Source of the DNA: Massilia sp. MS-15
Lineage (GTDB): Bacteria; Pseudomonadota; Gammaproteobacteria; Burkholderiales; Burkholderiaceae_D
Length of the DNA: 64,000 nt
Assembly: GCF_020176695.1 (NCBI RefSeq)
Contig: NZ_JAIWIA010000009.1
Location: 1 to 64,000 of the forward strand
Direction: 5' to 3'
Position 1 is the first letter of the stretch. Each line of letters begins with the position of its first letter. The position numbers were made by a program, and so were the translations under genes. The notes under the pieces were generated by a model, which saw only the letters and a list, made by a program, of their open reading frames with translations, ran no database searches and was not told where the DNA came from. Below are positions 59,883 to 62,937 of the stretch, one piece after another.

Positions 59883-59914
59883 AAAAACGGCGCACCTCGG
59901 TGCGCCGTTTTTTT
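59883..59914. terminator. Bidirectional terminator between the receptor gene and aroG
   Basis: AACGGCGCA and its complement around a six-base loop, with A and T runs on the two sides. It ends the receptor gene on the plus strand and aroG on the minus strand. Confidence 0.9.
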
Positions 59915-59928
59915 ATGGGGCAGCCCGC

Positions 59929-60987
59929 TTATTCCGGCCGCACCCGGCGCAGCCTGACCGCCTCCGCCAGGCCTTCCATCACCTCGACGCTGGTGGTCCA
60001 GTCGATGCAGCCATCGGTCACCGACTGGCCGTAGACCAGCTCGCGTCCGGGCACCAGGTCCTGGCGCCCACCCACCAGGTGCGATTCGATCATGACGCCG
60101 ACGATGCGGTCGTCGCCCGCCGCCACCTGGCGCGCGATGTCGGCGCACACCGGCACCTGGTTCTGCGGATTCTTGCTGCTGTTGGCGTGCGAGGCGTCGA
60201 TCATCAGGCGGCTGGCCAGGCCATTGGCCGCCAGCTGGCGGCAGGCCTCCTCGACACTGGCCGCGTCGTAGTTCGGGGCCTTGCCGCCGCGCAGGATGAT
60301 GTGGCAGTCCTCGTTGCCGGCGGTGGACACGATGGCCGAATGGCCGCCCTTGGTCACCGACAGGAAGTGATGCGGCTGCGAAGCCGCCTTGATGGCGTCG
60401 GCCGCGATCTTGATGTTGCCGTCGGTGCCGTTCTTGAAGCCCACCGGACAGGACAGGCCGGACGCCAGCTCGCGGTGCACCTGCGACTCGGTGGTGCGGG
60501 CGCCGATCGCGCCCCAGCTGACCAGGTCGGCGATGTACTGCGGGCTGATCACGTCGAGGAACTCGGTGCCGGCAGGCAGGCCGAGTTCGTTGATGTCGCG
60601 CAGCAGCGAGCGCGCCATGCGCAGGCCGTCGTTGATGCGGAAGCTGTTGTCCATGTAGGGGTCGTTGATCATGCCCTTCCAGCCGACCGTGGTGCGCGGC
60701 TTCTCGAAGTACACGCGCATGACGATCTCGAGTTCGCCGGCGAAGCGCACACGCTGTGCGGCCAGGCCGCGCGCATACTCGAGCGCCGCCTTCGGATCGT
60801 GGATCGAGCACGGGCCCACCACCACCATCAGGCGGTCATCCTGGCCGTGCAGGATGCGGTGCAGGGCGACGCGCGCGCCGGCCGCGGTCTGCTCGGCCGC
60901 CGGGCTTACCGGAAACTCGCGGATCAGGTGCGAGGGCGGCGTCAGTTCCTTCATTGCGCGGATGCGCAGGTCGTCGGTGCGGGGCAT
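59929..60987 (-). CDS. aroG: 3-Deoxy-7-phosphoheptulonate (DAHP) synthase, class I
   Basis: A 352-residue DAHP synthase that condenses phosphoenolpyruvate with erythrose 4-phosphate, the first step to Phe, Tyr and Trp. Visible are the metal-site cysteine in VVVGPCSIHDPKAAL, RVYFEKPRTTVGWKG, and LMIDASHANSSKN with the metal His and Asp. The type is the AroF/G/H family. The start at 60987 has CGGAGT at good spacing. It is preceded by a leader with promoter, aromatic-rich leader peptide and terminator, so control by amino-acid-dependent attenuation is predicted. Which aromatic amino acid inhibits the enzyme cannot be told here. Confidence 0.95.
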   Translation of the reverse strand: MPRTDDLRIRAMKELTPPSHLIREFPVSPAAEQTAAGARVALHRILHGQDDRLMVVVGPCSIHDPKAALEYARGLAAQRVRFAGELEIVMRVYFEKPRTTVGWKGMINDPYMDNSFRINDGLRMARSLLRDINELGLPAGTEFLDVISPQYIADLVSWGAIGARTTESQVHRELASGLSCPVGFKNGTDGNIKIAADAIKAASQPHHFLSVTKGGHSAIVSTAGNEDCHIILRGGKAPNYDAASVEEACRQLAANGLASRLMIDASHANSSKNPQNQVPVCADIARQVAAGDDRIVGVMIESHLVGGRQDLVPGRELVYGQSVTDGCIDWTTSVEVMEGLAEAVRLRRVRPE

Positions 60988-61020
60988 GCTGTACTCCGTG
61001 ATAGCTGGTTACCTGGTCTG

Positions 61021-61050
61021 AAAACGAAAAAACCGCCATCGCTGGCGGTT
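61021..61050 (-). terminator. Attenuator terminator in the aroG leader
   Basis: On the minus strand AACCGCCA, loop GCGA, TGGCGGTT is followed by TTTTCGTTTT. It ends 34 bases before the aroG start. Its 5' arm is also complementary to TTGGCGGT in the end of the leader ORF (61104-61111), which gives the alternative antiterminator pairing. Confidence 0.8.
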
Positions 61051-61096
61051 TGTCTGGGTTGCGTCGGACTGTTTCCTGATATTCGTGAACCTGCCG

Positions 61097-61165
61097 CTAC
61101 TCCACCGCCAAGGGGCTGGAATGGCTAAAGTAAAAATAGCAGGCAAAAACGGCGTATGCGCGCAT
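61097..61165 (-). CDS. Putative leader peptide of the aroG attenuator
   Basis: A 22-codon frame, too short for most gene finders, lies between a good promoter and the aroG terminator. It begins MRAYAVFACYFYFSHSS: six of the first thirteen residues are Tyr or Phe, with tandem Tyr-Phe-Tyr-Phe codons at positions 10-13 (61127-61138). It has no Trp. Its last codons contain TTGGCGGT, which can pair with the 5' arm of the terminator. The start codon has only a weak ribosome site (CGGA). This is the layout of a ribosome-mediated attenuator. It is inferred from sequence alone. Confidence 0.72.
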   Translation of the reverse strand: MRAYAVFACYFYFSHSSPLAVE

Positions 61166-61203
61166 GGAAAGTCCGAAAGGGTCCTGGGGACCGTGTTCAA
61201 TCG

Positions 61204-61232
61204 ACTATAACCCCATTGTGTAAGGCTGGCAA
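61204..61232 (-). promoter_or_regulatory. Sigma70 promoter of the aroG leader
   Basis: -35 TTGCCA (61227-61232, minus strand), 17-base spacer, -10 TATAGT (61204-61209). Transcription would start near 61197, giving a leader of about 210 bases before aroG. Confidence 0.75.
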
Positions 61233-61274
61233 GCCTTTTCCGAGCAGCTCCCCTGGTACCGGGCCGCACAGCGC

Positions 61275-62735
61275 TCAGGCGGTGCCGCCCACGGTCACGC
61301 CTTCGATGCGCAGGGTCGGCTGGCCGACGCCGACCGGCACGCTCTGGCCTTCCTTGCCGCACACGCCGACGCCCGAATCCAGGCGCATGTCCTTGCCGAT
61401 CATCGAGATATTGTTCATCACTTCCGGGCCGTTGCCGATCAGGGTCGCGCCCTTCACCGGATAGCTGATCTTGCCGTTCTCGATCATGTAGGCTTCGCTG
61501 GCCGAGAACACGAACTTGCCGTTGGTGATGTCGACCTGGCCGCCGCCGAAGTTCACCGCATACAGGCCGTTCTTCACCGAGGCCAGGATTTCTTCCGGAT
61601 CCTTGTCGCCGGCCAGCATGTAGGTATTGGTCATGCGCGGCATCGGCAGGTGGGCGAAGGATTCGCGGCGGGCGTTGCCGGTGACCGGCATCTTCATCAG
61701 GCGCGCGTTCATCGTGTCCTGGATATAGCCCTTCAGGATGCCGTCCTCGATCAGGGTGGTGCACTGGGTCGGGTTGCCCTCGTCGTCCATGTTGAGCGAG
61801 CCGCGGCGGTCCTGCAGGGTGCCGTCGTCGACCACGGTGACGCCCTTGGCCGCGACGCGTTCGCCGATGCGGCCGGCGTAGGCCGAGGAACCCTTGCGGT
61901 TGAAGTCGCCTTCCAGGCCATGGCCCACCGCCTCGTGCAGCAGCACGCCGGGCCAGCCCGGGCCGAGCACGATGGTCATTGGACCGGCCGGCGCCGGACG
62001 CGCTTCCAGGTTGACGCAGGCCGACTTCACCGCCTCGGTCGCGTACCGGTCGAGCAGTTCGTCGCTGAAGTAGCCGTAGTCGTAGCGTCCGCCGCCGCCG
62101 GAAGAACCGACTTCGCGCCGGCCGTTCTGCTCGGCGATGACGGTGACCGACACGCGTACCAGCGGGCGGATGTCGGCCGCCAGCACGCCGTCGCTGCGCA
62201 CCACCAGCACCACGTCGTATTCCCCGGCCAGGCCGGCCATCACCTGCACCACGCGCGGATCCTTGGCGCGCGCCATCTTCTCGACGCGCTCGAGCAGCTT
62301 CACCTTGGCGGTGGCGTCGAGCGAAGCCAGCGGATCATGTGGCAGGTAGAGCGAGCGGCCGCCGGTCGGGCGGGTCGCGCCCGCGATCTTGACGCGGCCA
62401 GCGCCGGCGCGGGCGATGGTGCGGGTGGCGGCGGCCGCATCCAGCAGCGCCGCTTCGGAAATATCGTCCGAATACGAGAACGCGGTGCGGTCGCCGGAGA
62501 CGGCGCGCACGCCGACGCCCTGGTCGATCGAGAAGCTGCCGGTCTTGACGATGCCTTCTTCCAGGCTCCAGCCCTCGCTTTTCGTGAACTGGAAATACAG
62601 GTCGGCGTAGTCGACCTTGTGCGTGAACATCGAGCCCAGCGCGTTCAGCAGCTTGCCTTCGTCCAGGCCGAATGGGGTCAGCAGCACGTCGCGTGCGACA
62701 GCCAGGGAGGAAAGGTTCGGTTCGAATGGTTTCAT
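61275..62735 (-). CDS. tldD: Metalloprotease TldD
   Basis: A 486-residue TldD, the zinc-dependent subunit that forms a heterodimer with TldE/PmbA and degrades unfolded peptides. It is known for processing microcin B17 and toxin antidotes. The zinc site HEAVGH is at residues 267-272, in the family segment [21 protein letters not shown], and the late GVTVGGTA end is typical. Length matches E. coli TldD. It is followed by the aroG leader promoter, so it is probably not part of the aroG transcript. tldE is not in the window. The 202-base gap on its upstream side shows nothing notable. Confidence 0.95.
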
Positions 62736-62937
62736 TTTGCGTTCGGTCCTTCGTGTGGAACGGGCATTGTGCCATATCCGGCCGCTTCGTACCGGACAGC
62801 AGATCCGCTCGAAACAATGCGAGTCTGCGCCGAATTATCGGGCATGGTCGCCACATTCATTACGCGACAGCTCGGAAACGAGGCTTACGGAAATTGACCG
62901 AAAGCCCTTGGCAAATAATTCGACTCTGACCCCATTT

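Follow-up and report, generated by a model that had tools for sequence, protein, structure and literature searches.

Ribosome-mediated transcription attenuation is a textbook mechanism, and two of its E. coli examples, the pheL-pheA and pheM-pheST leaders, each combine a short Phe-rich frame with an overlapping antiterminator and terminator; the pheST leader peptide contains a run like F-R-F-F-F-Y-F-S. The product of aroG is the committed enzyme of the shikimate pathway, and the textbook account of aroG control in E. coli consists of TyrR and TrpR together with feedback inhibition. An upstream element of a DAHP synthase gene has also been described: uORFC-13-1, with 24 representatives that, according to its published description, come only from Acholeplasma and environmental sequences; its authors also mention that attenuation has been hypothesised for E. 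coli aroF (PMC8632094). In Ralstonia solanacearum, which belongs to the same order as the strain studied here, one paper reports the response of aroG1-lacZ and aroG2-lacZ fusions to 1 mM Phe: in rich medium and with the other paralogue absent, activities fell from 702 to 316 (2.2-fold) and from 1072 to 353 (3.0-fold) Miller units, and in the wild type the Phe effect was small (from 47 to 40 Miller units and from 49 to 41; PMC6379268). The mechanism of the Phe effect is not addressed in that paper, and the strings ‘leader’ and ‘attenuat’ are absent from its main text.

We analysed the region upstream of aroG in a window of 64,000 nt from Massilia sp. MS-15, the coordinates of which are collected in Table 1. 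An earlier note on this DNA had described, ahead of aroG, a promoter, a 22-codon frame with three Tyr and three Phe that includes a Tyr-Phe-Tyr-Phe run, and a terminator 34 bases before the gene, with a segment at the end of the frame complementary to the terminator's 5' arm. Each of these parts was recovered. The promoter is the only promoter-like site in 60900-61400 (shuffle mean 0.0, sd 0.2), and the frame can be read directly, its Tyr codons being TAC, TAT and TAC and its three Phe codons all TTT. Segments 2 and 3 form a duplex of seven Watson-Crick pairs and one G-U pair, and the core of segment 3 is the 5' arm of the terminator, which was found by a terminator scan; from position 61021 to the aroG ATG (60987) there are 34 nt. 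The scan also returned a weaker terminator-like site on the opposite strand, at 61052-61069. The fold stability of the leader as a whole is not unusual (z -1.49). Just 3' of aroG, at 59884-59915, there is a hairpin with a T run whose Rfam matches all stay below threshold (STnc320, Leu_leader and others); it is an ordinary terminator.

Table 1. Features of the aroG leader and its surroundings in the Massilia sp. MS-15 window.
Feature	Positions	Strand	Basis
Promoter: -35 TTGCCA (61232-61227), 17 nt spacer, -10 TATAGT (61209-61204)	61204-61232	minus	sequence and promoter scan
Leader peptide frame MRAYAVFACYFYFSHSSPLAVE, 22 codons and TAG (ATG at 61165, TAG ends at 61097)	61097-61165	minus	
Control codons TAT TTT TAC TTT (Tyr-Phe-Tyr-Phe)	61127-61138	minus	sequence; Phe near-invariant, Tyr replaceable
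Segment 1 GCCATTCCA, potentially pairing with TGGAGTAGC at the frame end (61104-61096) as the 1:2 hairpin	61117-61125	minus	
Segment 2 TTGGCGGT, 5' strand of the antiterminator	61104-61111	minus	family conservation, between-family covariation
Segment 3 ACCGCCAG, common to antiterminator and terminator	61042-61049	minus	
Intrinsic terminator AAACCGCCA-GCGA-TGGCGGTTT (segments 3 and 4), then T run to 61027	61030-61051	minus	terminator scan
aroG, class I DAHP synthase, 352 aa, proposed regulated gene	59929-60987	minus	
tldD, directly upstream of the leader	61275-62735	minus	

The locus thus combines a promoter and a short predicted frame, Phe codons that appear to be under selection, an intrinsic terminator, and a mutually exclusive antiterminator built on the terminator's 5' arm. 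We propose that this element controls aroG by ribosome-mediated transcription attenuation and senses charged tRNA-Phe, possibly with a smaller contribution from Tyr or Trp, and we put the probability of this reading at roughly nine in ten. RNA polymerase would start roughly 7 nt downstream of TATAGT, with a ribosome following it through the 22-codon frame. With ample Phe, the ribosome would reach the stop codon, leaving segment 2 masked or in the 1:2 hairpin; segments 3 and 4 would then pair as the terminator, releasing a transcript of about 175 nt. When Phe-tRNA is short, the ribosome would stall on the TTT codons, covering segment 1 and freeing segment 2, which would pair with segment 3 before segment 4 is made, pre-empting the terminator and allowing aroG to be transcribed. 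We infer from the sequence that readthrough would depend on Phe supply. Among proteins of solved structure, AroG is closest to E. coli DAHP synthase entries: it scores about 501 bits against those named Phe-regulated or Phe-sensitive and at most 377 bits against those named Tyr-regulated or Tyr-sensitive.

Chance co-occurrence of these parts was evaluated with a detector that requires a frame of 8-45 codons with at least three aromatic residues in six, a G+C-rich hairpin accompanied by a T run, and, beyond the aromatic codons, a stretch able to pair with the 5' arm of that hairpin. The comparison set comprised the window and the best 80 AroG relatives in GTDB genomes (identity up to 93%); these relatives are from Massilia, other Oxalobacteraceae and Burkholderiaceae MAGs, in agreement with the group to which the earlier note had pointed. 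The detector fires at 78 of the 81 upstream regions (the window and 77 of the 80 relatives' loci), compared with 5 of 8400 dinucleotide shuffles, and when run over 542 overlapping tiles of the window, on both strands, it gives only two matches, both of them tiles of the aroG site. On the strength of the shuffles and the tiles, coincidence is rejected. One of the three misses, L074, is a MAG in which the aromatic frame and the terminator are present and segment 2 has decayed; inspection upstream of aroG in the other two, L044 and L069, found neither leader nor terminator, with tldD lying 36 and 79 nt from aroG. These two may represent a loss event in which aroG was brought under the tldD promoter.

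The same two loci could be cited for a simpler explanation, namely that the terminator merely ends the gene upstream, here tldD, and that the aromatic frame is incidental; tldD does lie directly upstream on the same strand in the window. However, no more than 40 of the 80 loci have tldD upstream of aroG. In the other 40 the flank examined shows no tldD and the element still accompanies aroG; two of these loci (L003 and L015) have as upstream neighbour a TonB-receptor-like gene, so named from its sequence, that points away. A conserved promoter, moreover, separates tldD from the leader frame: the best promoter site of each leader-bearing Oxalobacteraceae locus has TTGCCA at -35 in 68 of 77 cases and TATAGT at -10 in 51 of 77. 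Simple termination of tldD would also leave the aromatic codons and segment 2 unexplained, and we regard it as very improbable. The element travels with aroG and not with the upstream gene.

In two alignments of these leaders (A1, 76 sequences; A2, 48 sequences), conservation covers the stretch from the last control codons through the stop codon, the terminator and the T run, and the spacer drifts. Within that spacer (61096-61060), the short motifs AGCGG and GTTCACG are conserved in most Oxalobacteraceae (A1). The Shine-Dalgarno signal of the leader frame is weak, with a GGA-type match in 37 of 78 loci and none in 41. The distance between terminator and aroG, the median of which is 40.5 nt, exceeds 100 nt in four Undibacterium loci. 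The earlier note had named in advance an unconserved short frame with freely drifting aromatic codons as the result that would tell against attenuation; the comparison was run, and both the frame and its Phe codons are conserved.

The codon pattern hints at which amino acid matters most. We aligned 71 distinct leaders on their last Phe-Ser or Phe-Cys pair, which is present in 71 of 71, position 0 being Phe by construction. Position -2 is Phe in 69 of the 71, position -1 is Tyr in 59, Trp in 10, His in 1 and Ser in 1, and position -3 is Tyr in 40, Phe in 15, His in 13 and Trp in 3. The main signal is more likely to be Phe, which is near-invariant, than Tyr, whose positions accept Trp, His or Phe instead, with selection apparently holding the Phe codons and tolerating change at the Tyr codons. 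Where the earlier note had proposed Phe and Tyr together as the sensed amino acids, the Phe part is borne out by this near-invariance, and the Tyr part is weakened by the replaceability of its positions. At position -1, 10 of the 71 leaders have Trp in place of Tyr, and other families show F-Y-W mixes such as YFFWFWF; these observations lead us to entertain tentatively an alternative in which the leader senses the whole aromatic pool at the entry to the common pathway and not Phe alone, as an old aroG element shared by betaproteobacterial families and by two or more families outside the order. We consider it possible, if rather doubtful, and retain attenuation in response to charged tRNA-Phe as the preferred reading.

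Codon choice shows a further bias. Leader Phe codons are TTT in 256 cases and TTC in 85, whereas aroG itself, counted over the same 80 loci, has 92 TTT to 431 TTC; four genes of the window together have 2 TTT and 69 TTC. The preference for TTT in the leader (61147-61127 and its homologues) could reflect slow decoding or a constraint on the RNA. Downstream of the control codons, the residues S-x-S-x-P-x-A-V-E are kept in most leader peptides, and with the frame conserved to its C-terminus in this way one might suppose that it encodes a functional small protein and that the RNA arrangement is secondary. This C-terminal conservation is, however, at the nucleotide level and extends to synonymous sites: the Ser codons that follow are invariant by letter (AGC in 70 of 70, TCC in 65 of 65), which points to an RNA constraint. 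Moreover, four lineages (L005, L009, L033 and L065) carry a frameshift after the Phe codons that alters the peptide end while GGCGGTGG, and with it the RNA, is kept, and the N-terminal third of the peptide drifts in A1. A small protein as the main function has, in our judgement, very little chance of being correct.

The spacing of the parts agrees with a translational signal. In 62 of 78 loci, 20 nt separate the last aromatic codon from GGCGG; given the usual size of a ribosome footprint, a ribosome stalled at that codon would therefore occupy segment 1 while segment 2 stayed free. We modelled folding of only the RNA ahead of the ribosome, at the stage before segment 4 exists, ignoring the RNA behind it. 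Under this model, stalling a ribosome on the last aromatic codon gives a mean antiterminator probability of 0.88 across the 78 Oxalobacteraceae loci, with 73 of the 78 exceeding 0.5; the mean is 0.06 when the ribosome is absent and 0.00 when it has reached the stop codon. For 34 loci from a sample of the order the contrast is weak (0.57 stalled versus 0.41 without a ribosome), and the near equality of these two values suggests that the 1:2 hairpin is not general. Once segment 4 is present, the terminator beats the antiterminator at equilibrium in all three ribosome states and in 78 of 78 loci, which requires a kinetic switch. The stop codon lies at least 25 nt past the start of GGCGG in 16 of the 78 loci, and there a ribosome at the stop may fail to cover segment 2.

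Covariation was assessed both within Oxalobacteraceae and between families. On A2, the terminator helix is paired in 97.4% of cells, with covariation above that of 500 of 500 shuffles. The 1:2 helix is paired in 85.5% of A2 cells (slid controls reach at most 57.7%) and shows no covariation beyond shuffles on this alignment (58 of 500). The core of the antiterminator, GGCGGT against ACCGCC, is near-invariant within Oxalobacteraceae, and its seventh pair is not maintained there, with A-A-T in 36 of 78 loci. The TGGCGGT, ACCGCCA and TGGCGGT segments singled out in the earlier note are conserved in the family and covary between families, but the compensatory changes it asked for are not found inside Oxalobacteraceae, in which the six core pairs show hardly any variation.

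The between-family covariation comes from alignment A3 (40 sequences), in which three positions covary: those immediately 5' of GGCGG in segments 2 and 4, and the one immediately 3' of CCGCC in segment 3. Pair 38-124 is UA in 19 sequences, CG in 9, AU in 1, UG in 1 and unpaired in 10, and pair 124-138 is AU in 25, GC in 11, UA in 1 and unpaired in 3; among 30 triples across segments 2, 3 and 4, 17 are T-A-T and 9 are C-G-C. Cognate duplexes of segments 2 and 3 are more stable than non-cognate ones (mean -17.2 versus -15.6 kcal/mol), with 0 of 20000 permutations as good, a result for which the loci were picked partly for having a complementary segment, which biases toward pairing and not toward cognate over non-cognate partners. 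With one genome per family (12 families), 730 of 20000 permutations are as good. Pair 44-118 is unpaired in 26 of the 40 sequences, so across the order the antiterminator is shorter at that end. Taken together, the conservation of the parts, the codon pattern, the spacing and the between-family covariation support the ribosome-mediated attenuation that the earlier note had read into this leader.

In the wider order, we sampled 200 genomes, found an AroG match in 159 and examined 129 upstream regions. The strict detector fires at 34 of these, in 12 of 32 families. A covariance model, R2, was built from 40 sequences, 29 of them among those 129, and applied with a cut-off of 45 bits; it gives full-length matches of at least 45 bits at 49 of the 129 regions, in 14 of 32 families, with 20 of the 49 outside the training set and the next best match at 30.9 bits. 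The other 80 of the 129 aroG upstream regions are without the element at 45 bits (R2). The element is therefore widespread but patchy in the order. Over 370 genomes of the class, R2 finds seven places with at least 45 bits, namely the window, two in the order and four outside it, and all six besides the window have AroG downstream. The four outside the order, where the element again lies before aroG, are L249, L251 and L253 from one family (f61) and L254 from another (f66); their leaders have mixed blocks such as SFYFWYYF and RYWFYFFY, and their AroG proteins are 71-74% identical to that of the window.

Another model, R1, returned 29 further loci, of which 28 are followed by AroG and one is a bare terminator. 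Weak covariance matches (E 1e-6 to 0.01) were rejected as leaders: many are terminators only, as is L242, a bare terminator at 42 bits, and two tallies (95 of 370 genomes matched at E<=0.01, and 102 of 399) are unfit as measures of prevalence, since many of their matches are likewise only terminators. In the genome of MS-15 itself, no such leader was found at pheA, pheS, trpE or a second DAHP synthase gene (51% identity) within the stretches examined, and no other gene of the genome shows the element; the best other covariance match there, at C1:148972-149095, was rejected as a leader, being a terminator ahead of a gene in the opposite orientation. Nor was a leader detected at three aroG paralogues, on secondary replicons of Cupriavidus and Burkholderia and on a mislabelled Neisseria chromosome. 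PLSDB entries NZ_CP119142.1, NZ_OL790696.1 and similar ones are chromosome-sized ‘plasmids’ (2.2 Mb from Neisseria gonorrhoeae and 4.8 Mb from Escherichia coli) that are probably mislabelled.

Regulators other than a translating ribosome deserve consideration. A TyrR- or TrpR-type repressor might govern aroG and leave the leader a minor role, and a published study predicts that TyrR or TrpR acts on aroG in certain gammaproteobacterial lineages (PMC5343134). We find, however, no TyrR box (TGTAAA-N6-TTTACA with up to three mismatches) near the promoter; the window has five such matches, a chance-level number, the nearest beginning at 62925, and primary control by a repressor of either type seems to us very unlikely. 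The terminator switch might also respond to something other than a stalled ribosome, as in a T-box, a ligand riboswitch or a protein-bound leader, and additional letters are conserved between the control codons and the terminator (AGCGG, GTTCACG). But no Rfam family reaches its gathering score here: Phe_leader (RF01859) reaches 14.9 bits where 55 are required (E 5.4) and Trp_leader (RF00513) 17.1 bits where 41 are required, and no Rfam T-box family appears among the matches of 60988-61250, even at E values up to 10. The Phe codon bias, the TTT preference and the spacing from codons to segments, in turn, are explained only by translation, and another type of sensor is thus highly unlikely.

If attenuation by charged tRNA-Phe is correct, Phe-codon attenuation at aroG would be in use in many Oxalobacteraceae, in parts of 13 further families of the order and in the four sampled genomes that lie outside the order. 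This would offer a testable explanation for the published repression of aroG by Phe in the order, the mechanism of which was left unstated, and would bear on the engineering of aromatic compounds in these hosts; the covariance model is ready for annotating aroG leaders. A search of the open-access literature, with subscription papers and supplements outside its scope, returned no report of an aroG leader in betaproteobacteria, and the available part of PMC2965389 makes no mention of aroG or DAHP.

Compared with described systems, the element most resembles several attenuators at once. It shares with pheL-pheA and pheM-pheST a short Phe-rich frame, an overlapping antiterminator and terminator and the same logic, but its gene encodes the first common step and is not pheA or pheST, and its match to Phe_leader is not significant. 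Architecture and logic are likewise those of the trp operon attenuator (RF00513), which differs in having Trp codons and trp genes. Predicted attenuators before Vibrio DAHP synthase-tyrA and Bacillus aroG-containing operons would likewise act on operons whose first gene is a DAHP synthase gene or aroG, although, in the available part of that study, they are listed for their association with tyrA, lie outside the betaproteobacteria and come with no described leader peptide (PMC1173090). Finally, uORFC-13-1 before Acholeplasma aroF also has a predicted Phe-coding upstream frame and a terminator ahead of a DAHP synthase gene, but, to judge from its published description, differs from the present element in both sequence and structure (PMC8632094). 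The kind of element is therefore known, and DAHP synthase has precedents as its target; what appears to be new, relative to the literature searched, is this lineage of elements.
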